From a virus: 38,549 nt of DNA. Positions 19,109 to 36,768 of this stretch are shown one piece after another. Below the pieces are notes generated by a model that saw only the letters and a program-made list of their open reading frames with translations, had not been told where the DNA came from and searched no databases. The stretch lies in IMG/VR virus record IMGVR_UViG_3300027763_000116, positions 1-38,549 of that record. One strand, 5' to 3'. The position numbers and the translations under genes were made by a program. The stretch's first letter is position 1. Each line of letters begins with the position of its first letter.

Positions 19109-20209
19109 ATGGCAGCTCTACTTAAGATCAATACTGCGACTAGTCCAAAATCACTGAAGCAAGCTTCTGGGACTGACTATGAATATGCGGTAAATTTGAT
19201 CCTTACTCAATTAATTGGTTCAACTTCAAACGCCAATATTACAGTAAATCCTGCGAGTACTACGGGATTAACACTTATTGGTACATTCACAGATACTTAC
19301 TTAAATGCTGCGGTTGGCGCTCACCCCATCGGCACGACACCAGTATCAGTCACGTATAACTTTTATCAAGATCAGCAAGTAGCTGCCGAATCTATCACAC
19401 GACCGGTTGAGTTTGTTAGCTCCACTATCAAAGAACAAGTAGATGCAAATCTTAACGCCGATTTGATCGCCACTGCGCTTTCTAACTTAGTATCTACTGG
19501 TATTGGTTTCTACGCTCTACAGACGACTACTCCAACCGGCGGGACTTGGGTATCAACGAGTACAATAACTAACACTCTTGACTCAACAACCACAAACACC
19601 ACTCAGCTTTGGAAAAAAACTGCGGCCGCGACTACGCCAACAGCATTAAGACCAGTTAAACTCAATACTGCTACGTCACCAATTTCTTTAAAAGAAATGT
19701 CAGACGCAGAGATTCAATCGCTAGCTACACGCGTAAAGAATCAGTTAGGAACTACTGGCATCGGAACTTTTAAAGTTCAAGCATCGGCTCCAACCCCAGG
19801 AACATGGACGTCATCTGGCGCAGCTTTCCTTGATACTACAAGAACAGCTTCACTTCTTCCTTATACTGGATCATATAGTGGTAGTTATTCCGGATCATAT
19901 ACCGGAAGTTTTAGTGGTACTTATACTGGAAGTTATAGTGGTGGTTATGCTGGTTCACGGTCAAAAGCTTATACAGGAACTTATCGAGCTAGCTTTGCTG
20001 GATTTTTAGGCACCGCATATTCGGGTACTTATACGGGATTTTATGCCGGTACTTACACTGGAAGTTATAGTGGTAATTATACTGGATCATATAGTAGTAA
20101 CTTTACTGGAAGTTATACGGGTAGTTACTCCGGAACTTATTCTGGAAATACGTTAAATAATGATAGCAGTACAGTATCAACAGTTTACTTATGGGTAAGG
20201 ACAGCATAA
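19109..20209 (+). CDS. Fibre/adhesin-like protein with 24 Tyr-Ser/Thr-Gly tetrapeptides
   Basis: Residues 1-250 hold two copies of one module: KINTATSPKSLKQASG (near residue 5) against KLNTATSPISLKEMSD (near 188), and TGIGFYALQTTTPTGGTW against TGIGTFKVQASAPTPGTW. Residues 252-347 are 24 consecutive four-residue units with aromatic-Ser/Thr-Gly-Ser/Thr as consensus (YTGS, YSGS, YSGT), never losing register. Only a few units deviate (RSKA, YRAS, LGTA). A short hydrophobic tail ends in STVYLWVRTA. This suggests an extended beta-solenoid or stacked-aromatic rod. Position among fibre genes supports a virion surface role. The many Ser/Thr/Tyr side chains make it a possible target for the modification enzymes that follow; that is speculation. 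Confidence 0.75.
   Translation: MAALLKINTATSPKSLKQASGTDYEYAVNLILTQLIGSTSNANITVNPASTTGLTLIGTFTDTYLNAAVGAHPIGTTPVSVTYNFYQDQQVAAESITRPVEFVSSTIKEQVDANLNADLIATALSNLVSTGIGFYALQTTTPTGGTWVSTSTITNTLDSTTTNTTQLWKKTAAATTPTALRPVKLNTATSPISLKEMSDAEIQSLATRVKNQLGTTGIGTFKVQASAPTPGTWTSSGAAFLDTTRTASLLPYTGSYSGSYSGSYTGSFSGTYTGSYSGGYAGSRSKAYTGTYRASFAGFLGTAYSGTYTGFYAGTYTGSYSGNYTGSYSSNFTGSYTGSYSGTYSGNTLNNDSSTVSTVYLWVRTA
19862..20149 (+). repeat. 24 x 12-bp in-frame tandem repeat coding for Y-[ST]-G-[ST]
   Basis: The DNA repeats with a 12-base period, for example TATAGTGGTAGT and TATACTGGATCA. Synonymous codons differ between units (GGA/GGT, TCA/AGT, TAT/TAC), so the amino-acid pattern is better conserved than the DNA. 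That points to selection on the protein rather than recent slippage. Confidence 0.9.
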
Positions 20210-20671: not shown

Positions 20672-21415
20672 ATGAACGGTTTTTTGTATGTAGCTTCGCA
20701 GAGCAGTGCTTTCTATAAAGCTGCTGTATATTCTGCCATGTCCCTTCGTGATTATTACCCAGAAGCTAATATCACACTCTTTACGCACGCTGATTTCGTT
20801 CAGGAGTCTGATCGTAAGTTTTTCGATAAAATCGAAACTGGTATACCAATCCATAAGCGCGCTAAAATGTATGCGATGGCTAGAACACCATATGATAAGA
20901 CTTTTTACATAGACGCAGATACTGAAATTAGATCTGAGAATATTAAAAAAGTATTTGACAATCTTGGAAACAATGATATAATGTTTACTAAGATAATAGC
21001 AAAAGTTTCTAAAGATCGTTTAGTTAACTCTAAAAATAATCTAGAATATCATGGTGGTGTAGTTCTATATAATTCAAATAAGATTACTATTCAATTGATG
21101 CAAGATTGGTATGATACTTATTTGATACAAGATACGTGCCAGTGGAATAAAAGTCAATTTGCAGAATATAATCCTAAGATGAAACCATGGGATCAATTCA
21201 CTCTCTGGTATCTCTTAAATACTAAATACAAAGACATAAAGCATAATTTTTTTCCAGATGGCGGGCACGCTTTTAACTACATATACTTATTTGAGAACTA
21301 TAAAGAATTTGCTGACGTTGAACAAATAGTATATCATTATACAATATCACGTGACAGGATGGAAAATGCAATCATTATCAAACCTAAACCCGGACTTATT
21401 GAAGATTTTAACTGA
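20672..21415 (+). CDS. Putative glycosyltransferase, GT-A fold (nucleotide-diphospho-sugar transferase type)
   Basis: The protein (247 aa) begins with a beta strand and helix typical of GT-A enzymes (FLYVASQSSAFYKAAVYSAM). It has the metal/sugar-nucleotide Asp-x-Asp motif in FYIDADTEI (residues ~91-99), preceded by KMYAMARTPYDKT as in GT8-like enzymes. Further on come GGVVLYN (~131) and KPWDQFTLWYLL (~171), which fit the acceptor-side Asp-Gln motif of these transferases. No membrane segment is seen. It opens the enzyme island two bases after the preceding stop. It probably transfers a sugar to a virion or cell-surface acceptor; the donor and acceptor cannot be read from the sequence. Confidence 0.78.
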   Translation: MNGFLYVASQSSAFYKAAVYSAMSLRDYYPEANITLFTHADFVQESDRKFFDKIETGIPIHKRAKMYAMARTPYDKTFYIDADTEIRSENIKKVFDNLGNNDIMFTKIIAKVSKDRLVNSKNNLEYHGGVVLYNSNKITIQLMQDWYDTYLIQDTCQWNKSQFAEYNPKMKPWDQFTLWYLLNTKYKDIKHNFFPDGGHAFNYIYLFENYKEFADVEQIVYHYTISRDRMENAIIIKPKPGLIEDFN

Positions 21416-22025
21416 ATTCAGTAACTTCTTCTATAGCCGAGATTTTTCACACCTCGAGTCTTTAATTGGCTCAAATGAAAAGATGAAAAACGTTAGCGTT
21501 AAGTCTATGGCTTTAGAAGCGACTGGTGAAGAGTATTTAAGAAAAGCCCTTAAAGAAGATCCTATGAGATACGGATTCCCAAGACACTCTTGGGGTCTAG
21601 AGTTATCAATGGATCGTAAGTACATAGATGATAAAGAGCTTTTAGATAAATCTACGGAAGCAAATAGAAAACTAATCAATTTCTTTGGAGCTAGAAATAA
21701 CGCTCTACAAATGTTTTATCCTTCTGGTGGATATATCGGCTGGCACAGTAATTGTAACGCGCCTGGATTTAACATCGTGCTTTCTTTTAATCCTGAAGCT
21801 AGTGGATATTTTGAGCACTATGATCATGTTAACGATAAGTTTGTTAGGTTTGTCGACAAACCCGGATGGAATTGTAAAGTAGGTTATTTTGGTTCAGATA
21901 AAGAGTCCGAGAATATGTATTGGCACTGCGCCTATACAGACACGCCTAGACTGACTTTTAGCTACGTTATCGGCGATGAAAACATCTGGAAAGATATGGT
22001 AGATGATATCGGAATCCCCGATTAA
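21366..22025 (+). CDS. 2OG-Fe(II) oxygenase-like protein with His-x-Asn motif
   Basis: The C-terminal half has the double-stranded beta-helix pattern of 2-oxoglutarate/Fe(II) oxygenases: YPSGGYIGWHSNCNAPG, a GYFEHYD strand, and MYWHCAYTDTPRLTFSYVIG. In the last, the His would be the distal iron ligand and the Arg would bind 2OG. The usual His-x-Asp/Glu pair reads His-Ser-Asn here, so the facial triad is atypical. From memory, related oxygenases of cyanophages also show His-x-Asn, which would make it a family trait rather than decay. The chosen ATG at 21366 follows AGGATGG; a GTG at 21351 would lengthen the overlap with the preceding gene from 50 to 65 bases. Possible activity: hydroxylation of a protein or sugar; substrate unknown. 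Confidence 0.75.
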   Translation: MQSLSNLNPDLLKILTEFSNFFYSRDFSHLESLIGSNEKMKNVSVKSMALEATGEEYLRKALKEDPMRYGFPRHSWGLELSMDRKYIDDKELLDKSTEANRKLINFFGARNNALQMFYPSGGYIGWHSNCNAPGFNIVLSFNPEASGYFEHYDHVNDKFVRFVDKPGWNCKVGYFGSDKESENMYWHCAYTDTPRLTFSYVIGDENIWKDMVDDIGIPD

Positions 22026-22770
22026 GTTCATATGTTTAAAGTGGGGAACTAAGTATGGTCCCGAATACGTCAATAGACTCTTTCAATCAATATGTAAACA
22101 GTATCGCAATCCCTGCGAGTTTTATTGCTATACTGACAATCCTATTGGTCTTAAACCAGAAATAATAATAAGAGATATTGCTGAGCTTCGCAAAGTTGAG
22201 AACTCATGCTTTACGATGGAAAAGCTTTTTCTTTTTGATAGTCTAGATTTTGAGGGGCCTTATTGTCTTCTTGACATAGATATACTCATACAGTCAGACA
22301 TTACTTCTTACTTAGACGAATATAATTTCATTGAACCTAGATTCTCAATATGCGCCCGTCCACATACTGACATTGATTATATGAAAGCTGCGCCAATCTT
22401 TAGAGATTTTGGAACATGTTATGTAAACAGTTCATTTGTAACTTGGACTGGAGATCAACTCAAGTGGATGATTGATTTTTATATGAATAATAAAAAGATC
22501 ATTGACTATAAGTATAAAGACTTAGACACATTTCTATTTCATACTGTGCTTAAAGAAATGAAATTTCATCCAAGAAATATGATTTATTCTTTTAATCACG
22601 AAAAGACCCATTTAGATTCTCCTATAGTAATGTTTAATACATCACACGGAAGAGGTGTTGAACTTCACGAAGGTCCTACTTGGGCTAAAGAATTATGGGA
22701 ATCGTATGATAGTGAATCAGAATCCTCTCGTCTTCTAAACGAACATGTTTACGAGCAGCAGTCGTCATAA
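22003..22770 (+). CDS. Putative glycosyltransferase A1 (with C-terminal run-on)
   Basis: This 255-aa protein aligns end to end with the protein encoded at 23322-24032: KFICLKWGTKYGPEYVNRLF, GPYCLLDIDIL with the Asp-x-Asp metal motif, CYVNSSFVTWTGDQLKWM, and FNTSHGRGVELHE. These fit a GT-A sugar transferase. The paralog ends at WTRYD; this one reads WESYD and then continues for about 19 polar residues (SESESSRLLNEHVYEQQSS). The run-on passes into the 3' end of the opposing gene, giving an 86-base convergent overlap. The start is 23 bases inside the preceding gene and agrees with the paralog's N-terminus. Predicted cytoplasmic enzyme; donor unknown. Confidence 0.78.
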   Translation: MISESPIKFICLKWGTKYGPEYVNRLFQSICKQYRNPCEFYCYTDNPIGLKPEIIIRDIAELRKVENSCFTMEKLFLFDSLDFEGPYCLLDIDILIQSDITSYLDEYNFIEPRFSICARPHTDIDYMKAAPIFRDFGTCYVNSSFVTWTGDQLKWMIDFYMNNKKIIDYKYKDLDTFLFHTVLKEMKFHPRNMIYSFNHEKTHLDSPIVMFNTSHGRGVELHEGPTWAKELWESYDSESESSRLLNEHVYEQQSS

Positions 22771-23323
22771 TCTTTTTTGGAAAATACTCAACATTGCCGT
22801 ACTTATTAATGAAAGTATCATCTCCATAATGTTCGTGCGTGTGCTTAAATATATCTTCTATAAGCATCTCATACAAATAATGGTGTGAATCTCCAACCCA
22901 CCCCATGACTGAAGAGTTTCCATTACAAAAGAACTTTTCTTTATTCTTATAGTCTAACTTTTCAACTGAACTCCACCATTCATCATTCTTCCAAACTGTA
23001 TCTACTATTTTTAATACTTCTTTCTCAACTGTTTCGACTAAAAAATCTACGTTCTTTTTTATCAATATATCTAGATCAAAATACAGATTAATTCCAGGAC
23101 TGCATACGTCTTTATTGAACAAAGCTACTTTATTCCACCAAGTGTCAAGTTCAAATGGAGTTGCATCGATGAATTCAATTGGACGATTAGTCTTCCATTC
23201 ATAATCAGTAAAACAGTGCATCTTAAATTCATACGTTAAATACTTACAGAGCTGGTCGTATAAGTTTTCGACGTGCTCTATAGAATACTTTGGCTTCACT
23301 AAGACGCAGTAAACATTTATCAT
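22685..23323 (-). CDS. Putative glycosyltransferase B (diverged relative of the flanking pair)
   Basis: This 212-aa protein has the same plan as its two neighbours but is much diverged: an opening MINVYCVLVKPKYSIEHVEN, FKMHCFTDYEW where they have FYCFTD, NLYFDLDIL with the Asp-x-Asp-type motif (~77-84), and GNSSVMGWVGDSHHYLYEM in place of VNSSFVTWTGDQLKWM. It is shorter, lacking the FNTSH region, and ends in a basic/hydrophobic tail (HVRLEDERILIHYHTIPIIL). It is encoded against the direction of all structural genes. Its ATG overlaps the ATG of the next + gene (CATG), and its 3' end overlaps the preceding + gene. No convincing SD or promoter was seen. Confidence 0.72.
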   Translation of the reverse strand: MINVYCVLVKPKYSIEHVENLYDQLCKYLTYEFKMHCFTDYEWKTNRPIEFIDATPFELDTWWNKVALFNKDVCSPGINLYFDLDILIKKNVDFLVETVEKEVLKIVDTVWKNDEWWSSVEKLDYKNKEKFFCNGNSSVMGWVGDSHHYLYEMLIEDIFKHTHEHYGDDTFINKYGNVEYFPKKIMTTAARKHVRLEDERILIHYHTIPIIL

Positions 23324-24032
23324 GAATCAAACCGTTAAGTTTATAGTTTTAAAGTGGGGTACCAAATATGGGCCCGAATATGTTAATAGACTATTTAGGT
23401 CTCTGAAAGCAACCTATTCGGGTGAATTCGAGTTTTATTGCTTTACAGATAGTAGTCGTGGTGTTGAGTGTAAAACATATCCGATTGAGATGCTACCTCT
23501 ATTTAAATCGAATGTATTTACAGTATGTAAGCTCGATCTATTCAATAAGCTTCCTTTTAAGGGTCCGTATTGTCTTCTTGATCTTGATCTTCTTATTCTT
23601 AAAGATCTTAAACCATATTTCGATGAATATGGTTTTAAAGAACCGAGGATGATATACAATTATTGGACTGAAGTTCAAAGAATCTATAAATCATACTATA
23701 CTGGAGATTGCTACGTTAACAGTTCATTCGTGACTTGGGACGGAGATCAACTCAAGTGGATGCGAGATCGCTTTATAGAGAATCAGGAAGTAACAGCTTT
23801 CAGGTTCAAGACTTTAGATAAATTCATTTACTATAGCAGTCGCAAAGATATGAAGTATCATCCCCGCGGAATTGCTTATGCTTATAGTTTTGGGGCTGAA
23901 TACCCAAATGATCTAGATCCTTATAAGCAAAGAGATCAATACATATCGATTTTTAACACTTCACATAAGAAAGGTGTCGAGCTTCACGACGCCAATGGAT
24001 GGGCTAGAGATGTTTGGACCAGGTACGACTGA
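23322..24032 (+). CDS. Putative glycosyltransferase A2
   Basis: A close paralog of the 22003-22770 product: KFIVLKWGTKYGPEYVNRLF near the N-terminus, GPYCLLDLDLLIL carrying the Asp-x-Asp motif (~77-88), CYVNSSFVTWDGDQLKWM (~129), and FNTSHKKGVELHD near the C-terminus. It ends cleanly at WTRYD, which probably represents the ancestral end of this pair. The 236-aa length suits a compact GT-A transferase without membrane anchor. Its start codon overlaps the divergently read glycosyltransferase gene on the - strand. No SD is evident, so expression may depend on read-through transcription. Acceptor and donor are unknown. Confidence 0.78.
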   Translation: MNQTVKFIVLKWGTKYGPEYVNRLFRSLKATYSGEFEFYCFTDSSRGVECKTYPIEMLPLFKSNVFTVCKLDLFNKLPFKGPYCLLDLDLLILKDLKPYFDEYGFKEPRMIYNYWTEVQRIYKSYYTGDCYVNSSFVTWDGDQLKWMRDRFIENQEVTAFRFKTLDKFIYYSSRKDMKYHPRGIAYAYSFGAEYPNDLDPYKQRDQYISIFNTSHKKGVELHDANGWARDVWTRYD

Positions 24033-24642
24033 GCAAGACTACATTAAAGACTTAGACAAGATCCATGGCGAGATCTTTAAGCACCTTGATAGCAGAGGTT
24101 TAGAGTACGTTTATAGACTCTATGCAATGCACAATGATGAAAAGATGCGTAACCGTAACTTTATTGCTATGGACGTAATAAGGAAAAACTTCAAAAGTTT
24201 AAAGAATGTTGCAATAGTCAATAGTAGCAATCCTATTGCGCTAACCCACTTCTTAAAAAAAGAATATCAATCATCTGTAACTCTGGTATCTGATCATCCA
24301 TCGTTTGAGATGTCTGAAGGCTTCTTTCAAAGATTCTTTAAAGCCAATACGGTTATTAAAACCATATTCTTTGAAGACGTTGACTTTTCTTCTTATGATC
24401 TCGTGATATTGTCTGAGTTTGAGTATTTAGTTCCTCTTGATATGTTGAAGCACGTAAAATTTGGAGACTCACCAATCTTAGCACTTCAACATATCCAACA
24501 CGTTAATGATCACAATAGTCGTCACTTTGTGATGTGTATTGAAGACCTTCTTGAACTATGTAACTTTAAGAATTTATTAGATTCTAATGCTAAACTAAAT
24601 ACAGATAATAGATTAGTTTATTATGCACTTGGAGTGAGGTGA
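24010..24642 (+). CDS. Degenerate methyltransferase-like or unrecognised protein
   Basis: The middle region alternates strands and helices like a Rossmann fold: KNVAIVNSSNPIALTHFLKK, SSVTLVSDHP, then VDFSSYDLVILSEFEYLVP. This matches the strand order of class I SAM methyltransferases, but the glycine-rich SAM loop is replaced by NSSNP. It may be a diverged or inactive methyltransferase-like domain; confidence in that is low. The ATG at 24010 is preferred; a GTG at 23974 and an ATG at 23995 would extend it by 12 or 5 residues, further into the upstream glycosyltransferase gene. The 3' end overlaps the opposing sulfotransferase-like gene by 22 bases. Confidence 0.6.
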   Translation: MFGPGTTEQDYIKDLDKIHGEIFKHLDSRGLEYVYRLYAMHNDEKMRNRNFIAMDVIRKNFKSLKNVAIVNSSNPIALTHFLKKEYQSSVTLVSDHPSFEMSEGFFQRFFKANTVIKTIFFEDVDFSSYDLVILSEFEYLVPLDMLKHVKFGDSPILALQHIQHVNDHNSRHFVMCIEDLLELCNFKNLLDSNAKLNTDNRLVYYALGVR

Positions 24643-25265
24643 TTCGGCGGAGTAAGGATGATCTTTACATGTTCGTCAAGCCACCAAGGATCTGCGGCGT
24701 GAATGTATTTTTCATTCGCGTCTTGCTTTAGAATCTCGTCAATCTGCGGATCTTCCCACGCCATCGGAAAGTCAAGCCAGTGACCAAGCGATCTGATATA
24801 CTGACGTCGGTATAAGTACAAAAGTTCTTGGCTAACAAAGAATGGTGGCACCTTCATCCATTGAATAAGCTGAGGCATATTTCCCCATGTTGGTCCACCT
24901 CGAAGTCTAGTTTGTTGATGAGTTAAGATGTTCTTGTCTCTGCCTATAACTACAGGTTGAACATCGATTCCAAGACTTTCACACTTTTCAATAAATTCAA
25001 AAATTGGTGGAACTTTAGGCAGCCACTTTTCGATATAAGGATTGCTTATACTCGTCACGGCGTATTTCTTTCCGCCCATGATATTCAAATCTATTTTATC
25101 GATGTTATTCCAATAGTAGTTGAAAGGCTCTTTGTAGTGAGGGATAAAGTATCCATCGGGTTTAAGCGCGTCTTTCCACCCGTGAACTTCCGGATGCATA
25201 CTAAAGATTTTACTGAATAGATGATTGCCAGATCCTTGTGGACCAAATAATACTATGAGTTTCAT
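24621..25265 (-). CDS. Putative sulfotransferase-like P-loop protein
   Basis: The 214-aa protein starts with a strand and nucleotide-binding loop, MKLIVLFGPQGSGNHLFSKI. This fits the 5'-phosphosulfate-binding loop of PAPS-dependent sulfotransferases, and the downstream FSMHPEVHGW is a common context for it. A second strand, VQPVVIGRDKNILTHQQ (~101-117), fits the 3'-phosphate-binding Arg region. Sulfotransferase is preferred over kinase because no lid or substrate motifs of nucleotide kinases are visible. It is the second gene of a two-gene - strand operon, its ATG overlapping the stop of the methyltransferase gene (TAATG). It converges on and overlaps the + strand gene by 22 bases. Acceptor unknown. 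Confidence 0.68.
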   Translation of the reverse strand: MKLIVLFGPQGSGNHLFSKIFSMHPEVHGWKDALKPDGYFIPHYKEPFNYYWNNIDKIDLNIMGGKKYAVTSISNPYIEKWLPKVPPIFEFIEKCESLGIDVQPVVIGRDKNILTHQQTRLRGGPTWGNMPQLIQWMKVPPFFVSQELLYLYRRQYIRSLGHWLDFPMAWEDPQIDEILKQDANEKYIHAADPWWLDEHVKIILTPPNHLTPSA

Positions 25266-26014
25266 TATTTTTTAATCAACTCAAAGTAAAGTCTATTTCC
25301 ATTATCTTTCTTAAATGACTCTAGTTTACAATTATGAAGAACTGCTATGTTATACGCAGTCTCAAAGTCCCATGGATAGATATCAACCCACTGACCATTC
25401 TTATGAATTTCTCCAGGATTAGCTCTAACATAGATAGTACCACCCGGCATAGTCAAGTCTACAACTTTCTTGAACTTGTCGTTAATATCGCTAAATTCAC
25501 CAAAGTTAATACTGCCAAAAACAATAACATGATCGTATGATTCATTGGGAACGTTATAGTCTAGAATATCAACCATGAAGTCGGCTGAATTATTGAATGC
25601 ATCGATGCCTATAAGATTCTGGATTCTGGCTTTAAACTGATTAAAACCACAACCAACGTCAAGTACGGCTTTAGGATTCGAATTATTAATTCTATCTACG
25701 ATATTCCATCCAGTGTATTGATACACCTCAGTCCTTGGCTGCCATATTCCTCCCCAGAATCTAGAACTATACTTGGTGTCAATGTCAGCCACGAGCATAG
25801 AAACTGATAGATCAATGTTAATATCAACATCGAATGTATCATTCAATAAAGCTATAAACTTCTCAAGTTTCTTTGGAGTCCATGGAAGCGATAGTACCAT
25901 AGTATTCACACTAATGCTTTCACGAGCTTGCGCGTATTTTGGAAGATTAAAGCACTCTTTTAAATTTTTAAATACAAAGTTAAATATTTTACGATTCACA
26001 ATAAAAATTCCCAT
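25265..26014 (-). CDS. SAM-dependent methyltransferase
   Basis: A class I methyltransferase core is clear: motif I AVLDVGCGFNQFKARI (~115-130), an acidic residue after strand 2 in LIGIDAFNNSADFM, and motif IV as SYDHVIVFGSINFGEFSD (~160-177). Then come PGGTIYVRANPGE and a final LYFELIKK strand. The first 90 residues are a separate N-terminal region with no motif I know. The catalytic region is homologous to the + strand methyltransferase at 29641-30249, sharing LDVGCGxNxFK and SINFG. It leads the - strand pair with the sulfotransferase-like gene, read from the intergenic region 26015-26085. Substrate unknown; a sugar or small-molecule acceptor would suit its neighbours. Confidence 0.8.
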   Translation of the reverse strand: MGIFIVNRKIFNFVFKNLKECFNLPKYAQARESISVNTMVLSLPWTPKKLEKFIALLNDTFDVDINIDLSVSMLVADIDTKYSSRFWGGIWQPRTEVYQYTGWNIVDRINNSNPKAVLDVGCGFNQFKARIQNLIGIDAFNNSADFMVDILDYNVPNESYDHVIVFGSINFGEFSDINDKFKKVVDLTMPGGTIYVRANPGEIHKNGQWVDIYPWDFETAYNIAVLHNCKLESFKKDNGNRLYFELIKK

Positions 26015-26030
26015 TTAAGATATTTTTTTC

Positions 26031-26060
26031 CCTACTAGTTATATATATAGATTAGTAAGG
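26031..26060. promoter_or_regulatory. Divergent promoter/operator candidate
   Basis: This is the only intergenic space in the island between divergently read genes (26015-26085). It contains the arms TACTA (26033-26037) and TAGTA (26053-26057), symmetric about a TATATATATA core at 26040-26049, with CC and GG outside. The AT-rich core could supply -10 elements in both directions and the dyad could be a regulator site. No TATAAATA late core is present, so early or middle expression is possible. No clear -35 was identified. Confidence 0.4.
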
Positions 26061-26085
26061 AATTTTTCTTTAGAGGATGAAAAAA

Positions 26086-26829
26086 ATGACAGAATATCAA
26101 GATTGGGGCGATAGTCGCTGGGAATTTACTAAGAAGCAGAGCAGCTGGCATTTTGATCCTAGTAAACCACCAGTTCCAGGCACCGATAGTTATACGTATG
26201 TCTGTAGATTTAATTCCGACTTCACTGACGCTATTTCAAAGTGCATGCCTCGAGCAAAAGCAAGCAATTGGAGTAGTCGAAATAATTTCAATGAAAAGAT
26301 AGCTGAAGAGGGTTTGTATTCTGCGAGCGTTGAAGAGAAAGATCTAATCAAAGCTGGTGCAGATCCAAAACAAGAAGTATTTCATCGAACAGCTGCTGAA
26401 GATATTGAGATCTTTCAAAAGATTGCTGAGTATCTTGGAATTGATGAACCCATGATTAAGTTTCATAATCAGACTACAGGTCAGATGCTTCATACACATA
26501 TAGATAACTTTGCAGCTCGACCCGAGCGCGAAAACAGTTTCAAAGAAATTGACATCGATAAGAATCCAAACATTATGCGAAGGTTTGTAGTCATGTTAGC
26601 TGACTGGGAACTTGGGCAGATCTTTCAGATTGGTAATGCAAACTTTACTCAATGGAAAGCTGGCGACTGCATTACTTGGGAATGGAAAGACATGCCACAC
26701 AGCACCGCTAATATGGGATGGTGGGATAGGCCGATGCTTCAAATCACGGGTTATATAACAGATAGAACTAAAGAATTACTTAATGAAGTATACAATGTTA
26801 CCGGCAAGAATTTAGTGGTAAAAATATGA
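26086..26829 (+). CDS. 2OG-Fe(II) oxygenase-like protein (aspartyl/asparaginyl or prolyl hydroxylase type)
   Basis: The C-terminal half shows a full iron site: GQMLHTHIDNF gives His-x-Asp (HID), and WKDMPHSTANMG gives the distal His. It is followed by DRPMLQITG, whose Arg could bind 2-oxoglutarate. The strands between (MRRFVVMLADWELGQIFQIG, then WKAGDCITWEW) fit a double-stranded beta-helix. The start at 26086 is preferred because GAGG at 26073-26076 is spaced nine bases from it and touches the upstream in-frame ATG at 26077. The N-terminal 100 residues have no recognised motif. It is unrelated in detail to the other oxygenase in the island. Its stop overlaps the next start. Likely hydroxylates a protein or small molecule; substrate unknown. 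Confidence 0.75.
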   Translation: MTEYQDWGDSRWEFTKKQSSWHFDPSKPPVPGTDSYTYVCRFNSDFTDAISKCMPRAKASNWSSRNNFNEKIAEEGLYSASVEEKDLIKAGADPKQEVFHRTAAEDIEIFQKIAEYLGIDEPMIKFHNQTTGQMLHTHIDNFAARPERENSFKEIDIDKNPNIMRRFVVMLADWELGQIFQIGNANFTQWKAGDCITWEWKDMPHSTANMGWWDRPMLQITGYITDRTKELLNEVYNVTGKNLVVKI

Positions 26830-27560
26830 ATCAGGTTACTATAGTAGTATATCCACCGGGGGCTTATGGTAGTTTTATCAGCTGGATGATAGAACGGTTT
26901 AGTAAACACCGCACGGATGTAATAGACAATCCACTATTATCAGATGGTAGTAGTCACGGTTATGCTAGTTTCTGTAAAGTCAAAGGCATAGATGATTTTA
27001 TGGCGGGACTTGAAGAAGCTCGCAATAATACTAAGCCATGGCATACTAACGTATATGCTGGTTGGCCTTCTAACCCATCAGAAAACTTAGATGACAATAT
27101 CAAGACTATACTAAATTGGATGATGCCTTTCGATAGATTAATCTACATTGATGTAGATAGCGCAGAGGAACACATATTATGTTATTTGCGAAATGAAGCA
27201 ACTATGAATCGTGATCGTTGGTATGATATGCTAGGTGTAGATAACGATGATCAATTAGCTGAAAGATTACGTATTGACATCGATAGTCATGGACTATCAT
27301 CTATAATCGACTCTAGGTTAACTAGATTAATCATAGGGGATATCTTAGACGGATTTGCGTCTGACCTATGGTCCAGGATGTGTAGAATACTTGGATGGCC
27401 TATGAAAGACTATAATTTATATCTTGAAGTCATCAAAGAGATGAGACTTAAACAACAAATATTCTATCAGTTAATAGCTGAAGGATTTGGGCCGGAAGGA
27501 ACTCCGGTTCAACGCGCTGCATTTAAATATTTTAAGGAGAAAAACAATGGATCTAACTAA
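26826..27560 (+). CDS. P-loop-like protein of unknown function (possible sulfotransferase relative)
   Basis: The protein (244 aa) begins VTIVVYPPGAYGSFISWMIE, a strand-loop-helix resembling the nucleotide-binding start of sulfotransferase-like proteins, but without the Gly-Lys-Ser/Thr of a classical Walker A. A second strand FDRLIYIDVDSAEEHIL (~105-121) could be the 3'-phosphate region, though no Arg-Ser pair is obvious. The C-terminal 60 residues are helical and charged. The ATG overlaps the preceding oxygenase stop (ATGA) and the 3' end overlaps the symporter gene start by 14 bases, so it belongs to the same + strand operon. A sulfotransferase relative is the best guess; it may equally be a phage-specific family. 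Confidence 0.6.
   Translation: MNQVTIVVYPPGAYGSFISWMIERFSKHRTDVIDNPLLSDGSSHGYASFCKVKGIDDFMAGLEEARNNTKPWHTNVYAGWPSNPSENLDDNIKTILNWMMPFDRLIYIDVDSAEEHILCYLRNEATMNRDRWYDMLGVDNDDQLAERLRIDIDSHGLSSIIDSRLTRLIIGDILDGFASDLWSRMCRILGWPMKDYNLYLEVIKEMRLKQQIFYQLIAEGFGPEGTPVQRAAFKYFKEKNNGSN
27534..27539 (+). promoter_or_regulatory. Strong ribosome binding site of the symporter gene
   Basis: AAGGAG lies seven bases before the ATG at 27547. It settles the start at 27547 and rejects an in-frame start 60 bases upstream. It is the strongest SD in the island and suggests that the transporter is made in quantity. Confidence 0.75.
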
Positions 27561-29016
27561 AATTTTCCCATTATTTACTCCCGACACCGGCATTATGGTT
27601 TTAGGAATCTACGCTGCTATCGTGTTTGGATTGACATGGGTTTTTGCTAAAGGTTATGCCACTAGTAAAGAGGGTTTCTTTGTAGCCCGCAGGGAAGTAG
27701 GTGCACTTCAGGGGGCTATGAGTACTGGTGCTGCTTGGATGTGGGCGCCTGGAATGTTCATCTCTGCACAGCAAGCTTATATGAATGGACTAGTCGGATT
27801 GTTCTGGTTCTGTATTGGTAACTTCCTAAGTCTTATATTCTTCAGTTGGTTTGCTAAGAGATTAAGAGATAAGAAACCCGATGGTTTTACTATTTCAGGT
27901 TATCTTAAAGAAAAGTTTGGTAAACGTGTTCAATCATTGTTTATGGTAGAACTATTTAGTCTCGCTATTTGTAGCTTTGCTATTAACGTATTAGCGGGAT
28001 CTAAATCGGTTCAGGTTCTGACTGGATTAGATTATCACTTTGTTAGTTTGATTCTAGCAACTATTGCATTGACTTATACTTTGCGTGGTGGATTAAAAGC
28101 ATCAGTTATAACCGAAATATTCAAACTGTCTGTGTTGGTATTGGGCTTGGGCGTATTAATGCCTTGGGCAGTCAGTGCCGCGGGTGGTTGGGGTGTAGTT
28201 GATCTTGGCCTTGGTGGTATCACTGGTAATGGTCGTGATATCTTTGGCACGGACTTTGCTCTAGGCGTGTTTATGGGCTTTGGCTTTTCTACTGCTATTG
28301 GTCATATGGGCGCACCATGGGGTGATAATGCATTCTATCAACGTGCTTTTGCTGTAAAGAAAGACAGTGTTATTAAAGCATTTGTTGGCGGAGCATTCAT
28401 ATTCATTCTAACACCATTGATGACTGGTATTCTTGGCTTCCTTGCTGCTGGTATGCATTACGAAGTTCCTAAAGAATTACTTGGTTATGTTAACGTGCTT
28501 ACTGTTGGTAACCTATTGCCAGCATGGGCTGCTATCATGTATTTGTTTATGTTGTTCGCGGGCCTCGTATCTGTGCTTGACTCACAACTTAGTAGCGTCA
28601 GTAATATCTTTGGACACGACGTTAAGAACATGATTAGACCACACGGCGACGATCAAGCTAGCATCGATATCGGAAGAGTTGGTATGTTATTCTTAATCGC
28701 AGCTGGTCTGACTCTGGCTAACTGGCCAGGAATGACTCTAGTCACTATCTTTTTATTCTTTGGTATTCTTAGGGCTACTGTGTGGTTCCCATTGATGTTT
28801 AGTCTTTTGAATGAAAAGTTAGTTAATGAAGCTGGTATGTTCTGGGGCGTATTGATTGCTTACTTGGTTGGATTCTCAACTTATGTTTATGGTCAAAACT
28901 TCGGCGGTGGTCCAAACATCGCAGTACTTGGAACTTGTCTTGCTGTCTTTGGTTCAGGCGCTTTGGCTCTTGGAATCACAAAGTTGCAAAACGCAAACTT
29001 TAATGGCGATAAGTGA
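27547..29016 (+). CDS. Sodium:solute symporter family (SSS) membrane transporter
   Basis: The product of 489 aa is a typical full-length member of the SSS family (Na+-coupled uptake of proline, sugars, urea, carboxylates and others). About 13 hydrophobic segments are visible, including GIMVLGIYAAIVFGLTWVFA, GLFWFCIGNFLSLIFFSWFA, FVSLILATIALTYTLRGGLK and LPAWAAIMYLFMLFAGLVSV. The family-like substrate/Na+ region appears as EGFFVARREVGALQGAMSTG followed by AAWMWAPGMF in the first core helix. The loop ALTYTLRGGLKASVITEIFK is the well-known 'Y-T-x-x-G-G-L-x-A-x-x-x-T-D/E' SSS signature. FAGLVSVLDSQLSSVSNIFG matches the second conserved region. No truncation is seen. The substrate cannot be assigned. 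Transporters of this size are unusual cargo in a T4-like structural cluster. Confidence 0.9.
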   Translation: MDLTKIFPLFTPDTGIMVLGIYAAIVFGLTWVFAKGYATSKEGFFVARREVGALQGAMSTGAAWMWAPGMFISAQQAYMNGLVGLFWFCIGNFLSLIFFSWFAKRLRDKKPDGFTISGYLKEKFGKRVQSLFMVELFSLAICSFAINVLAGSKSVQVLTGLDYHFVSLILATIALTYTLRGGLKASVITEIFKLSVLVLGLGVLMPWAVSAAGGWGVVDLGLGGITGNGRDIFGTDFALGVFMGFGFSTAIGHMGAPWGDNAFYQRAFAVKKDSVIKAFVGGAFIFILTPLMTGILGFLAAGMHYEVPKELLGYVNVLTVGNLLPAWAAIMYLFMLFAGLVSVLDSQLSSVSNIFGHDVKNMIRPHGDDQASIDIGRVGMLFLIAAGLTLANWPGMTLVTIFLFFGILRATVWFPLMFSLLNEKLVNEAGMFWGVLIAYLVGFSTYVYGQNFGGGPNIAVLGTCLAVFGSGALALGITKLQNANFNGDK

Positions 29017-29639
29017 ATAAGTACATATTCATAACGGGGGCTCCAGGTTCTGCCTGGAGCCGAGTTGCATCAAGCATATATAAAAGTACGAGTCTAGATA
29101 ATAGCGATTACTCGAGTGATCGTACTTTTACATATGTAAATGATGAAAAACAAATAGAAAAAAGCTTTCATCATGGCGTATATTTTGGTCCAGATCAACA
29201 ATTCGGAAAAAGATTCGATAAATTATACGAGATGACTAAAGATGAGATTGAACTGGAGATGAATCTTCCTTTCAATAGTTCTGGCATAAAGGTTATTAAG
29301 TGCCATGACTTCTCATATCAATTAGATTTTTTATCAGAGACTTGGCCTGAGTGTCCAATAATAATGTGCCATAGGCCTATGGAAATAAGTTATGATTGGT
29401 GGATGCACATAGGTGGTCCAAATATAACTTATCCATCTTATAAGTCTATTGATCCTAAGAAATATATTAATCTCTGCAACGATGGAATATATGATTTTAT
29501 CAAAAAGAATAAAACTATTGAAGTTAAAAACAACATGGAATTATGTGAAGTTTTAGAGATCGATCCGGTGAATGATATATATTATTACGATAACTCTGAT
29601 GGTAAAAATGTTATTACGAATGTGAATGTGAAGGTTTAA
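29013..29639 (+). CDS. Putative sulfotransferase-like protein S1
   Basis: This 208-aa protein begins NKYIFITGAPGSAWSRVASS, a strand plus nucleotide loop with GAPGSxWS in place of the P-K-S/T-G-T-T-W loop of PAPS sulfotransferases. Residues about 109-124 (CPIIMCHRPMEISYDWW) hold an Arg followed five residues later by a Ser on a helix, as in the 3'-phosphate site. It is a clear paralog of the protein encoded at 30246-30935, sharing the loop, a GxYFxPxxxFG segment, IKxIKxHxFSYxLD and xGxxNITYPxY. The ATG overlaps the symporter stop (GATAAGTGAATAAG region). Likely transfers sulfate to a small molecule, sugar or protein; enzymatic activity is unproven. Confidence 0.7.
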   Translation: MNKYIFITGAPGSAWSRVASSIYKSTSLDNSDYSSDRTFTYVNDEKQIEKSFHHGVYFGPDQQFGKRFDKLYEMTKDEIELEMNLPFNSSGIKVIKCHDFSYQLDFLSETWPECPIIMCHRPMEISYDWWMHIGGPNITYPSYKSIDPKKYINLCNDGIYDFIKKNKTIEVKNNMELCEVLEIDPVNDIYYYDNSDGKNVITNVNVKV

Positions 29640-29640
29640 T

Positions 29641-30249
29641 ATGGAAAACGTTTTCTCTCTAATTAAAGAAGCAAATGATGAAATTCTTTGGATGTTTTCC
29701 AAAGACGTTCATGAACTCATCCTCGATAAGTACTTTAGTACATATTTTGAAGACGTGCCAGACTTAAGTAAATATTCTATTGTGCACACAGTTGAAACTA
29801 ATTGGTGTAAGAATATTCTAGATGTCGGCTGTGGGCACAATCACTTCAAATATGAATTCTTAGCTTGCCGCTTCACGAGCATTGATCCCTACATTGATGG
29901 TGCAGACTATAAGATGAATGTTATAGAATATCAGGAAAACTTCCCTGATCGTCAATACGACTGTCTAATAGCTTTAGACTCTATTAACTTTGGCCCTAAA
30001 CCTAAAATTTTAGCTGAGATTGAAGCTATAGATAAACTTACTCAATCTGGAGGCTTACAGATTTGGCGTGTTAATAATAAAAATGAACCACGAATCGATG
30101 AAACGTTTCCAATCTCCGAACTAATTCAGTATTTTAAATGGGATAGAGATTTCATACAACACGTTGTTAACATTTATGATTATGAACTTATAGAATACAC
30201 AGAAGAGTCTGATAATATCTTATTTGTAATGAAGAAAAGCTCGCAATGA
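29641..30249 (+). CDS. SAM-dependent methyltransferase, paralog of the - strand enzyme
   Basis: Class I methyltransferase motifs are present: NILDVGCGHNHFKYEF (motif I, ~58-73), the acidic post-strand-2 residue in FTSIDPYIDGADYKMNV, and QYDCLIALDSINFGPKP (motif IV). A strand GGLQIWRVNNKNEP and the final ILFVMKKS follow. It shares LDVGCGxNxFK and SINFG with the methyltransferase encoded at 25265-26014 but lacks most of that protein's N-terminal region. It lies between two sulfotransferase-like paralogs, one base after the first and overlapping the second by four bases (ATGA). The acceptor may be the same class of molecule as for its neighbours; that is inference from arrangement. Confidence 0.8.
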   Translation: MENVFSLIKEANDEILWMFSKDVHELILDKYFSTYFEDVPDLSKYSIVHTVETNWCKNILDVGCGHNHFKYEFLACRFTSIDPYIDGADYKMNVIEYQENFPDRQYDCLIALDSINFGPKPKILAEIEAIDKLTQSGGLQIWRVNNKNEPRIDETFPISELIQYFKWDRDFIQHVVNIYDYELIEYTEESDNILFVMKKSSQ

Positions 30250-30935
30250 AATATAGTCCTCTAATGAAATATATTTTTGTAACTGGCGCACCAGGATCTA
30301 AATGGAGTTCAGTGGTTCGCAATATCTATTTTAGTAGTAGCATAAATCAAAGCGATTTTTCTATGGAACGCAGATATTATCATGATGCTTCCGGAAAGCG
30401 GCAATTAATGCACCTCGGATCTTATTTTGATCCAGGAATGGAATTTGGAAGTGACTTCTATATATTAGACTCAATTGAAAAAGAAGAAGCTGAAGCTAAA
30501 TTTCATAAACCATTTACCAATGATGTTGGTATAAAGATCATAAAGAGCCACTTCTTCTCTTATCATCTTGATCACATAAAAAGAACTTGGAAAGACCCAA
30601 TCGTTTTAGTATATCGTAACTCCGATTCTTGCATAGGTTGGTGGGTTAGATGTGGCCACTTTAATATCACGTATCCAAAGTATGATTATTACAGCGATAT
30701 AGACTCTATGGTAAAATACATTGATTCTCAGAATAAAGCTATTAAGAAATTCATCGAAGAAAATGATGTATTGCAACTTCATAATAGTATTGAATTAGCT
30801 CGAGCATTAGGCATCAATCACGATAGCGTCAATAGTAAAGGCGAAATGGACGTTTATTATCAAGACTATGAAAAGAACGATATTAAAGTTTATCTTTATT
30901 GGCCTAAATATGATGGAAGCGAAGCTTTTAGTTGA
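30246..30935 (+). CDS. Putative sulfotransferase-like protein S2
   Basis: A paralog of the 29013-29639 product: KYIFVTGAPGSKWSSVVRNI, GSYFDPGMEFGSDFY, GIKIIKSHFFSYHLDHI and GHFNITYPKYDYY align directly. The likely 3'-phosphate strand reads DPIVLVYRNSDSCIGWW with Arg and Ser suitably placed. The start at 30246 overlaps the methyltransferase stop (ATGA); an ATG at 30264 would give an N-terminus matching the paralog exactly, so the first six residues are uncertain. The C-terminus (VYLYWPKYDGSEAFS) is longer than in the paralog. It is the last gene of the island, directly before a late promoter. Function is inferred from fold motifs only. Confidence 0.7.
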   Translation: MKYSPLMKYIFVTGAPGSKWSSVVRNIYFSSSINQSDFSMERRYYHDASGKRQLMHLGSYFDPGMEFGSDFYILDSIEKEEAEAKFHKPFTNDVGIKIIKSHFFSYHLDHIKRTWKDPIVLVYRNSDSCIGWWVRCGHFNITYPKYDYYSDIDSMVKYIDSQNKAIKKFIEENDVLQLHNSIELARALGINHDSVNSKGEMDVYYQDYEKNDIKVYLYWPKYDGSEAFS

Positions 30936-32251: not shown

Positions 32252-33235
32252 ATGGCCACTTTAACTACACGAGACCAATTTAAAGAATATTGCTTGCGTA
32301 AACTTGGCAAGCCCGTCATCGAGATTAACGTAGATGATGATCAAGTAGAAGACCGCATTGACGAAGCTTTGAAGTATTATTACGATTATCACTTTGATGG
32401 TACAGAGAAACAATTCTATAGTTACATATTCCAAGCCAGTGACTTTCCAGACGCCGTAAAAGAAATCAAAGTTTATGATGGCGGTACAGCGTATTCAAAT
32501 AATGATACGGTCACGATTACTGCTACGACTGGTGATACTACTGGTGCATCAGCTACTGCAACGCTTAGAACTTATGCGAATGGTACAATTAGTGCAATTA
32601 CTGTAACAGCTGTTGGATCTGGGTATAGACTCGATCCAAACGTAACTATCACAACCAGCACTGGTTCTGGAGCTAGCGTTGAAGCTTTTAAAGGCGGATA
32701 CGTAACGATTCCCCAAAACATAATTGGTGTCGTGAACATATTTGATATTGGCGATTACATCGCGACAAATAACATATTCAACATTCGTTATCAGATCGCA
32801 CTTAACGATTTGTATAGTCTTACTTATCAGTCAATGGTTCCCTATTACATGGCGTTCCAGCATATTCAATTGCTTGAGCAATTACTTGTTGGTAAACAAC
32901 CAATTCGCTACAATAGAAATACGAATCGTTTATACATTGATGTTAATTGGGATAAGATTCAAGTTGGTCAATACCTATTAGTCGAAGCATATCAGATTGT
33001 TGATCCAGCTAAGTATACTGACGTATGGAACGATCGTTGGCTCCAAAGATATGCATCAGCACTAATTAAGAAGCAATGGGGAACTAACCTAACCAAGTTT
33101 AATGGTTTGCAACTTCCCGGCGGCGTTACATTTAATGGCGAAAAGATTTATAACGATTCTCACGATGAAATAGAAAAACTCGAGAATGAGATGGCTGTAT
33201 CTTATTCACTTCCGTCTTATGACATGATCGGGTAA
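32252..33235 (+). CDS. 13: Neck protein gp13 with an inserted beta module
   Basis: The N-terminus (TRDQFKEYCLRKLGKPVIEI, then VDDDQVEDRIDEALKYYYDY, residues ~6-47) is diagnostic of gp13 in marine T4-like phages. gp13 forms the neck ring that closes the filled head and receives the tail. The C-terminal part (YQIVDPAKYTDVWNDRWLQR, KKQWGTNLTKFNGLQLPGG) is also typical. Between them, residues about 67-148 carry a Gly/Thr-rich stretch (VYDGGTAYSNNDTVTITA through AVGSGYRLDPNVTITTSTG) that resembles modules in the gp7-position and gp8-like proteins. Length is 327 aa; T4 gp13 is 309 aa. It starts the neck operon under its own late promoter. Confidence 0.92.
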   Translation: MATLTTRDQFKEYCLRKLGKPVIEINVDDDQVEDRIDEALKYYYDYHFDGTEKQFYSYIFQASDFPDAVKEIKVYDGGTAYSNNDTVTITATTGDTTGASATATLRTYANGTISAITVTAVGSGYRLDPNVTITTSTGSGASVEAFKGGYVTIPQNIIGVVNIFDIGDYIATNNIFNIRYQIALNDLYSLTYQSMVPYYMAFQHIQLLEQLLVGKQPIRYNRNTNRLYIDVNWDKIQVGQYLLVEAYQIVDPAKYTDVWNDRWLQRYASALIKKQWGTNLTKFNGLQLPGGVTFNGEKIYNDSHDEIEKLENEMAVSYSLPSYDMIG

Positions 33236-34785: not shown

Positions 34786-35164
34786 TAGAAGAGACGTGAT
34801 CGGGCAGAGTTTAAATCTTCCTGAACTTCCAAGAATAAAAACGATGGGTTTAGCTCCAAATACGTCGTCGGACGATTATGAGTTCGCGCGGGGTAATCTC
34901 TATAGTTTAATCAATAAAGGAAACGATGCTTTAGAAGAGATCTTCGATGTTGCTAAACAATCGGAATCTCCTAGAGCTTTTGAAGTCGTTACTAATCTTT
35001 TGAAGACGATGGTTGATGCGAATAAAGATCTTCTTGACTTAGCAAAGAAGCAAAAAGAACTTCAGGCTAAAGATGATGATGGTGGCCCTAAAACAATAAA
35101 CAATAATTTGATCTTAACTTCAGCCGAACTCTTGAAGATGATAAAGAACGACAAAGACCAATGA
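34778..35164 (+). CDS. 16: Terminase small subunit gp16, GTG start
   Basis: The 128-aa protein is located between gp15 and the large terminase, as in T4. It shows the helical pattern of gp16: NLPELPRIKTMGLAPNTSSD at the N-terminus, a central helix pair (LYSLINKGNDALEEIFDVAK, then RAFEVVTNLLKTMVDANKDL) and a charged Lys-rich end. gp16 forms a ring that stimulates packaging initiation and the gp17 ATPase. T4 gp16 is 164 aa, so this is a shorter form. GTG at 34778 is used as start, inside the end of gp15; the stop overlaps the gp17 ATG (ATGA). Confidence 0.9.
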   Translation: MADRRDVIGQSLNLPELPRIKTMGLAPNTSSDDYEFARGNLYSLINKGNDALEEIFDVAKQSESPRAFEVVTNLLKTMVDANKDLLDLAKKQKELQAKDDDGGPKTINNNLILTSAELLKMIKNDKDQ

Positions 35165-36768
35165 GTGAGATTTATTTAGGTAATAAGAACTTAAAGAGAC
35201 GTGATGTGAAGATCCCCTTCACCGCGGATCAAGTTCAAGAATATCTAAAGTGTGCTAGAGATGTTGAATATTTTTGCGCCAAGTACGTTAAGATTGTTAA
35301 CGTTGATCGGGGTCTGATAGACTTTCAGCCTTATAAGTATCAAGTTAAAATGTTTGACGTGTTCGACGAAAATCGATATACGATATGCAAAATGCCTCGA
35401 CAAGTTGGTAAAACCACGGGTGTTGTAGGATATCTTTTACACAAAGCATTATTTAATGAAAACTATAACACCGCAGTCCTCGCAAACAAAGAGAGACAAG
35501 CGCGTGAGATCTTATCAAGAGTTCAATTAGCTTACGAATGGCTTCCAAAATGGATGCAGCAAGGAATCATTGAATGGAATAAAGGAAGCATTGAACTCGA
35601 AAATGGTTCTAAGATTTTTGCTTCTTCTACGTCATCAACGGCCGTTCGTGGTCAATCATACAATCTGATTTACTTAGACGAATTTGCGTTCGTTCCTCGT
35701 AACATTCAAGACCAGTTCTTTGCTTCAGTCTTTCCAACGATTTCATCGGGTGAAACTACAAAGCTCATCATCACTTCAACTCCAAATGGTATGGATCTTT
35801 TCTATAAGATATGGATGGATTCTGAACAAGATAGAAACACCTATGCCAGAGTAGACGTTCATTGGTCAGACGTTCCAGGTCGTGATGAAGTCTGGAAAGA
35901 GTTGATGATTAAGAACACTTCAATCGATCAATTCCGTCAGGAATTTGAGTGTGAGTTTCTTGGATCGTCTAATACGCTTATTCATCCATCTATTTTGTCA
36001 AAGTTAGTATTCTTTCCGCCGTCTACAATTCAACTCGGTGTTAACGTATTTACAGATCCAAAGAAAGATCACCAATACTTTATGACAGTTGACTTAGCTG
36101 AAGGGCTTGGGCAGGATAGTTCAGCATTTACAATAATAGATGTTACTACTGTTCCTTACGAAGTAGTTGCTACTTATCAGAATTCCAGTATTTCGGAACT
36201 TTTGTTCCCAACTCTTATTATGAATGTTGCTAAGTACTTTAATGAAGCTTGGGTATTAATTGAAACCAATATAGGATCTCAAGTAGTTAATATTCTTCAC
36301 CAAGATCTCGAATATGAAAACGTAGTTACTACGCAGGTTGGCGGCAGAAAAGGTGTTTCTCTTGGATCCGGCGGGTCTCAGAGTCGCTTAGGCATGAAAA
36401 CCACTAAACTTACTAAAAGAATAGGGTGTACAAACCTTAAGTCAATGGTTGAGTCTCATAAAATTAAACTCAACGACTTTAACATCATACAACAACTTTC
36501 TACTTATGTAGCTGATAGAACTTCTTATAATGCAGAAGAAGGTCACCATGACGATTTAGTCATGTGTCTAGTATTATTCTCATGGATGGTTAGCCAAGAG
36601 TACTTTAAACAGTTATCAGATACCGACGTTCGTCAAAAAATCCTTGAAGAAAATGAAAGACAGATAGAAGAGAATATGTCTCCCTTTGGTTACCAAGACG
36701 ATGGTATGCCCGTAGATGAGGCGGTTATAGTTTCTAGTAGTGAATTTGATAATTGGTTTATAAGCTAG
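35161..36768 (+). CDS. 17: Terminase large subunit gp17 (packaging ATPase and nuclease)
   Basis: The protein (535 aa; T4 gp17 is 610) carries the ATPase domain with the Walker A-like MPRQVGKTT (residues 78-86) and Walker B LIYLDEFAF (Asp173, catalytic Glu174). ITSTPNG (coupling motif) follows. The C-terminal RNase H-like nuclease has Asp311 in TVDLAEGLGQDSSAF, a second acidic position near VLIETNIG, and the terminal HHDDLVM (Asp464/465). It drives ATP-powered DNA packaging and cuts concatemers for headful packaging. All key residues appear present. The ATG overlaps gp16. The 60-base gap to gp18 contains a late promoter. Confidence 0.97.
   Translation: MSEIYLGNKNLKRRDVKIPFTADQVQEYLKCARDVEYFCAKYVKIVNVDRGLIDFQPYKYQVKMFDVFDENRYTICKMPRQVGKTTGVVGYLLHKALFNENYNTAVLANKERQAREILSRVQLAYEWLPKWMQQGIIEWNKGSIELENGSKIFASSTSSTAVRGQSYNLIYLDEFAFVPRNIQDQFFASVFPTISSGETTKLIITSTPNGMDLFYKIWMDSEQDRNTYARVDVHWSDVPGRDEVWKELMIKNTSIDQFRQEFECEFLGSSNTLIHPSILSKLVFFPPSTIQLGVNVFTDPKKDHQYFMTVDLAEGLGQDSSAFTIIDVTTVPYEVVATYQNSSISELLFPTLIMNVAKYFNEAWVLIETNIGSQVVNILHQDLEYENVVTTQVGGRKGVSLGSGGSQSRLGMKTTKLTKRIGCTNLKSMVESHKIKLNDFNIIQQLSTYVADRTSYNAEEGHHDDLVMCLVLFSWMVSQEYFKQLSDTDVRQKILEENERQIEENMSPFGYQDDGMPVDEAVIVSSSEFDNWFIS

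Follow-up and report, generated by a model that had tools for sequence, protein, structure and literature searches.

The window, meaning the whole stretch of DNA analysed, is a 38,549-base virus contig of IMG/VR. It belongs to a virus of lake bacteria with a working-looking nutrient-importer gene. The importer gene (SSS, family F0) lies in a gene island at 20,672-30,935. Baseplate/tail genes (baseplate wedge) flank the SSS region on the 5' side; neck proteins, the small and large terminase subunits and the tail sheath flank it on the 3' side. These genes, with a terminase of T4 type, bear out the initial annotation of a T4-like phage. The cyanophage-host markers psbA and psbD have no match in 18 viral records, many of them fragments, and cyanobacteria are not excluded thereby. 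Nothing in the data points to a particular host, marine alphaproteobacteria included. The features are as follows.

24621-25265, minus strand: F1, P-loop-like protein (GPQGSGNH... and IGRDxNILxxQxxR, motif invariant), sulfotransferase-like by motif only
25265-26014, minus strand: F2, class I SAM methyltransferase with an invariant DxGCG motif
26077-26829, plus strand: F3, 2OG-Fe(II)-oxygenase-like protein with weak AtsK and Asp/Asn-hydroxylase matches
26826-27560, plus strand: F7, P-loop-like protein (YPPGAYGSF), 3' end overlapping the SSS start by 14 nt
27534-27539, plus strand: Shine-Dalgarno sequence AAGGAG, 7 nt 5' of the SSS ATG
27547-29016, plus strand: SSF/SSS-fold transporter of 489 aa, frame open and complete
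27736-27744, plus strand: codons of W64-M65-W66 in the WxWA motif (first core helix), with W64 in place of PutP D55
28570-28575, plus strand: codons of S342-V343, aligned with the PutP Na2 ligands S340-T341, second hydroxyl lost
29013-29639, plus strand: F4a, sulfotransferase-like protein (GAPGSAWS), GTG start overlapping the SSS stop by 4 nt
29641-30249, plus strand: second F2-type methyltransferase, clustering with F2
30246-30935, plus strand: F4b, sulfotransferase-like protein (GAPGSKWSS) of the F4 family
35161-36768, plus strand: T4-type terminase large subunit, ~53-55% to cyanophage/pelagiphage gp17 (phrog_2)

The SSS protein matches PF00474 (SSF) over profile positions 1-405 of 406 (E 4.8e-25, 88.7 bits, cut-off 22.8) and the PHROG profile phrog_20720 at 5e-92. 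The match to the NCBIfam superfamily model TIGR00813 is full-length (E 6.4e-37) and stays below the cut-off (127.6 vs 184 bits). A TTG at 27487 is a possible longer start, without support comparable to that of the ATG. About 12 hydrophobic regions are found at the chosen hydropathy threshold, and the WMWAP helix (residues ~54-73) falls under it, which would fit a protein of 13 helices. An alignment-based scan gives homologues at 67 viral loci (33-100% identity). Pairwise dN/dS is ~0.04-0.14 in the computable pairs, where dS is close to 1 or higher; many pairs are synonymously saturated. Low dN/dS and the 67 homologous loci exclude chance as the origin of the frame. The core helices show next to no variation. 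The gene has long been resident in phages and is kept by strong purifying selection. The intact SSS-family frame first annotated here is upheld by the full-length PF00474 match, the complete ORF and the Shine-Dalgarno sequence. The gene almost certainly encodes an intact, selected SSS-fold protein, and a functional importer is very probably its predicted role.

Six TATAAATA late-promoter-like sites occur in the window, all on the plus strand and all outside the island. Six is no more than chance expects in the window, so the sites weigh only weakly against the expression late in infection that had been suggested; at most they hint that the island differs from a classical late operon. A consensus sigma-70-type promoter with a perfect 12-of-12 match (TTGACA, 16 nt, TATAAT) and a TG before the second hexamer is present at 20955-20982, inside the ORF at 20672-21415. 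The tail-gene block ends with a protein bearing Ser/Gly/Tyr-rich repeats (SYSGSYTGSY..., 19109-20209). Three related glycosyltransferase-like ORFs overlap or abut at 22003-22770 (plus), 22685-23323 (minus) and 23322-24032 (plus). In the neck (head-tail adaptor) protein at 32252-33235, residues ~63-149 match tail-fibre/baseplate families, as if a domain had been inserted there.

Relatives of the transporter and its ion site

A complete secondary symporter in a phage had been called unusual. This view is not supported: homologues occur in at least 67 viral loci, and a different SSF gene is published for T4-like Aeromonas phages (PMC6163359). SSF genes are also reported in estuarine viral contigs (PMC13288924). 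Among cells, a peptide scan of 84,980 prokaryote genomes gives one relative, in a Moraniibacteriota MAG (L013, 42% identity). By profile search the family occurs in 8 of 379 sampled Patescibacteria genomes, with near-full-length copies 30-42% identical; this profile search is centred on Patescibacteria, and the two cellular surveys cover other phyla poorly. Relatives in plasmid records are only ~24-26% identical.

When the Na2 columns are masked, the tree unites 37 phage sequences, that of the window among them, in a single clade (support 100/100). CPR and other phage SSS groups stand outside it; DUR3 and the Pararhizobium, Sulfitobacter and E. coli proteins stand further out, and many branches are long. 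Comparison with four of the SSS subfamilies named earlier gives no assignment. PutP (TIGR02121, 51 vs 515.5 bits; W64 at the D55 position), PanF (TIGR02119, 40.9 vs 328 bits) and ActP (NF006903, 8.8 vs 750 bits) are rejected by their cut-offs, and DUR3 lies on a long branch outside the phage/CPR clade.

Other arrangements are found for more distant phage SSS genes. In one group (L061, L062, L055, L054) the gene is inserted between gp16- and gp17-like (terminase) genes and has on its 3' side a PP-loop (SGGIDS) gene resembling asparagine synthetase. The Moraniibacteriota MAG also has a homologue of this PP-loop gene, two genes 5' of its SSS. In another (L015, L053, L063, L064, L066, L067, L068) SSS adjoins ParB-like and PAPS-reductase-domain genes (IbrA/IbrB-like pair); this group includes the human faecal phage record MT836198.

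In prokaryotic SSS proteins the Na2 site is built from three oxygens of the main chain and two hydroxyls of Ser/Thr residues in core helix 8, and substitutions in it are highly deleterious (PMC7918813). Mapping of these residues, proposed together with the Na+ symporter label, recovers the first hydroxyl at S342 and not the second, which is replaced by V343. All 37 clade members have Val or Ile at position 343 (PutP T341). Among 36 of them, the window and the cassette-bearing loci, the pair is AI in 17, SV in 11, SI in 5 and AV in 3, Ala thus occupying position 342 in 20 of the 36 tabulated members; Ser342 is kept in the window. The remaining clade member, from the truncated contig L029, has SV. 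Phage homologues outside the clade carry S-T in 11 of 12 cases. W64 and W66 are invariant in 49 sequences, and by alignment the WxWA motif is common to the window SSS, DUR3 and some other bacterial SSF proteins.

With the Na2 hydroxyl pair degraded across the whole clade, sodium coupling cannot be assumed. The label of Na+ symporter becomes doubtful, the second hydroxyl being Val or Ile in every one of the 37 members, and the alignment tips the balance somewhat towards a transporter that is not classically Na+-coupled. That SSS is the classical Na+-coupled symporter of the initial annotation is unlikely, Val or Ile at 343 being clade-wide and Ala present at 342 in more than half of the tabulated members, even if its SSF membership and the Ser342 kept in the window and part of the clade speak for it. 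E. coli ActP, in which both hydroxyls are replaced (A-V by alignment), is still described as a cation or sodium/acetate symporter (PMC7918813), and for this reason the case against sodium is moderate, not strong. It is strengthened by the deleterious effect of Na2 substitutions, by CbrA, which is proton-driven without the Na2 residues (PMC7918813), and by the closest solved relative, named urea-proton symporter DUR3. The consistent loss of one Na2 ligand makes the clade a natural sequence set for studying ion coupling in the SSS fold.

Cassette genes and the importer slot

The neighbours F1, F2, F3, F7 and F4 recur beside SSS across divergent phages and in different genome positions. F1 is the most frequent by ORF clustering, adjacent to SSS in 43 of 69 loci, and F2 occurs in 38, F3 in 17, F4 in 15 and F7 in 14 of them. 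Neither F1 nor F7 has a significant Pfam, PHROG or PDB match; F7, like F1, is sulfotransferase-like by motif only, and the P-loop-like motifs of both are without the usual lysine. The best PDB profile match of F2 is cyclopropane-fatty-acid synthase (3.7e-5). In F3, H141, D143, H208 and R218, corresponding to the HxD...H...R set of 2OG-Fe(II) oxygenases, are invariant in 15 members. Sulfotransfer_3 is matched weakly by 12 of 16 F4 members (best 9e-5). Sulfotransferase-like genes are present beside SSS in the window, by a weak Pfam match for F4 and by motif only for F1 and F7. SSS is probably co-translated with the co-linear sulfotransferase-like genes.

Scans with F1 and F2 give more than 570 viral matches each, of which the best 155 loci were analysed; no match to either is found among 50,697 sequenced phage records. 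The F1/F2 set is also present, mostly with a TctC gene, on a contig of 524,565 bases (L164) and on others above 300 kb (L152, L157, L171, L176). Amidinotransferase/arginine-deiminase-like genes occur in or near the cassette in L138 (7381-8457; PF02274, 6.9e-5, just under the cut-off) and in L002 (14638-15717; no Pfam match), and radical-SAM/SPASM genes in other cassette loci.

An APS kinase gene lies directly 3' of SSS in the window's close relative L005 (PF01583, 1.5e-15, above cut-off), in L138 (PF01583, 1.4e-14, above cut-off), where the kinase start overlaps the SSS stop, and in L006 and L008. In L138 and L005 it is followed by a small nucleotidyltransferase gene, and the two are fused in some Tct-bearing phages. 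Among the best 155 cassette loci, 26 of the 59 with SSS and 10 of the 60 with Tct genes carry the kinase/nucleotidyltransferase pair. No APS kinase is nearby in 33 of the 59 SSS loci, and none is present in the 38.5-kb window, where F4 occupies that place after SSS. The product of APS kinase is PAPS, from which sulfotransferases take the sulfate group. The chances that the cassette chemistry is of sulfation type are about even.

The best 155 F1/F2 loci comprise 59 with SSS, 60 with TctC-like and/or TctA genes, 36 with neither and none with both. After deduplication at 95% F1/F2 identity the counts are 29 SSS, 46 Tct, 17 neither and 0 both (Fisher p 5e-12); at 80% they are 10, 25, 9 and 0 (p 4e-5); under a harsher grouping by shared 40-residue words they are 14, 30, 11 and 0 (p 1e-6). 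Clustering at 60% leaves 9 clusters, one of them with both kinds in different members, and the exclusivity statistic is then without power. Pfam matches confirm TctA (1.8e-86) and one type of TctC (1e-17). Of the protein families in the best 155 loci, SSS and TctA alone are predicted to have at least five membrane segments.

The exchange is seen on a common backbone. L142 shares with L138, L131 and L129 a gene set of 55-88% identity gene by gene. In L138 and L129 SSS is flanked by the oxygenase gene and the kinase gene; L142 is without SSS at that point and carries TctA-N12-TctA just after the kinase pair (TctA confirmed, 2e-78). N12, which always adjoins TctA, looks like a TctC-type binding protein and has no match to Pfam TctC. 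Exclusivity and swapping with TctA/TctC are the strongest argument for SSS as a functional, cassette-linked importer, and a functional link between SSS and the cassette is likely. Phage lineage or habitat could account for part of the SSS/Tct exclusivity. The 36 loci of 155 without either transporter, some of them short contigs, mean that an importer is not strictly needed.

Proposed function and alternative readings

The best reading, with a probability of about 0.5, is that SSS is the exchangeable importer of a phage tailoring cassette, probably of sulfation type, with non-canonical coupling and with an organic anion or organosulfur compound as leading substrate candidate. SSS would be placed in the inner membrane of the infected cell. 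The cassette would need a solute whose supply across the host membrane is too slow, and SSS or TctA/TctC would import it. Coupling would be by protons or in another non-canonical mode, not by classical Na2-site sodium. Since two unrelated importers occupy a single slot next to a common enzyme set, their solutes are probably identical or equivalent. The substrates of tripartite tricarboxylate transporters are tri- and dicarboxylates, and sulfolactate has been proposed as another. By analogy with these substrates an organic anion or organosulfur compound is named as lead candidate, tentatively; it might serve the cassette chemistry as acceptor, sulfur source or carbon supply. In the relatives with APS kinase, that enzyme would provide PAPS as the sulfate donor.

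Extended to a whole import-and-modify pathway spread through uncultivated phages, the proposal becomes doubtful. A swappable importer, SSS or a tripartite tricarboxylate transporter, would bring in the organic acceptor or sulfur source, a phage APS kinase would make PAPS, and sulfotransferase-like, 2OG-oxygenase-like and methyltransferase enzymes of the phage might produce a sulfated molecule, or one tailored in another way, in the course of infection, SSS having moved away from canonical Na2 sodium coupling. What stands of the initial interpretation is an intact, selected SSS-fold transporter, most simply an auxiliary importer; the Na+ label and the picture of a lone curiosity give way to a recurring cassette.

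Generic nutrient import (amino acid, urea/polyamine, carboxylate or osmolyte) from a hypervariable island, with no link to a pathway, is improbable. Phages carry many unrelated transporters (PMC6163359), distant phage SSS genes adjoin other genes (the PP-loop gene between terminase genes, the ParB/PAPS-reductase pairs) and some cassette loci are without a transporter, all as generic import would have it; it does not account for the same neighbours recurring across divergent phages in different positions, for the gene overlaps, or for TctA/TctC filling the same role exclusively.

Still less probable is an importer that provides the phage 2OG-oxygenases with 2-oxoglutarate or with one of its precursors, for example citrate, TctA/TctC acting likewise. 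F3 is present in most cassettes with either transporter, and one report places TctA, as a protein-domain hit only and with role unknown, and a 2OG-oxygenase on SUP05 viral contigs (PMC4164917). The proposal is indirect and leaves the sulfotransferase-like and APS-kinase genes unexplained.

A membrane protein that has ceased to be a transporter and acts as a sensor, receptor mask or superinfection-exclusion factor is very improbable: strong purifying selection covers the whole transporter length, the core helices hardly vary and in other phages a genuine transporter system takes the place of SSS, against which can be set the degraded Na2 site and the ability of SSS domains to act as sensors (CbrA, PMC7918813). 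Host DNA misassembled into the contig, raised as a possible chimera at the outset, can be dismissed, the SSS region being 100% identical in two other IMG/VR contigs (L001, L010), the gene order being the same on both sides in a 157,623-base phage contig (L005, SSS 84% identical to the window), viral homologues being many and the sole cellular relative from the peptide scan being just 42% identical.

Comparison with known systems

The preferred reading, an exchangeable importer of a tailoring cassette, is compared here with described transporters. The urea-proton symporter DUR3 (9j7c) is the closest solved relative of SSS by profile (5e-40). It shares with the window protein the WxWA motif and the absence of the second Na2 hydroxyl (DUR3 pair S-A); it differs in its longer chain of 704 residues and in its position, which is not within the phage/CPR clade. 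Urea is not implied as the substrate of SSS, since WxWA also occurs in other bacterial SSF proteins. The Patescibacteria SSF proteins (L013 of the Moraniibacteriota MAG, L083-L088) are the closest cellular relatives found (30-42%), but stand outside the cassette clade and have mostly Ser-Thr or Ser-Ala as the Na2 pair. The PHROG family phrog_20720 is the same family as SSS; its catalogued function is unknown, and no cassette is described for it in PHROG.

The SSF gene of the T4-like Aeromonas phages 44RR2, 31 and Riv-10 is annotated as a putative sodium/glucose cotransporter (NP_932589; PMC6163359). Like the window gene, it encodes a complete SSF transporter in a T4-like phage. Unlike it, the Aeromonas protein groups with E. 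coli YidK in the tree, keeps the Ser-Thr Na2 pair, and is encoded in the motA/52 region without the cassette. Tricarboxylate transport genes are reported in oxygen-minimum-zone viral contigs (PMC8115048). As in the present loci, viral tctA is phage-borne and is accompanied by other auxiliary genes, either directly or elsewhere in the set of viruses (PMC4164917, PMC8115048); exchange with SSS and a shared cassette are not described in the accessible text of either report. In the open-licence literature no description of a phage SSS or TctA with a sulfotransferase cassette is found. SSS in T4-like phages is thus already known, and the cassette and its importer slot appear undescribed. Phage auxiliary transporters are usually reported singly, with a guessed nutrient role; the multi-locus comparison places a functional constraint on viral tctA and on viral symporters.
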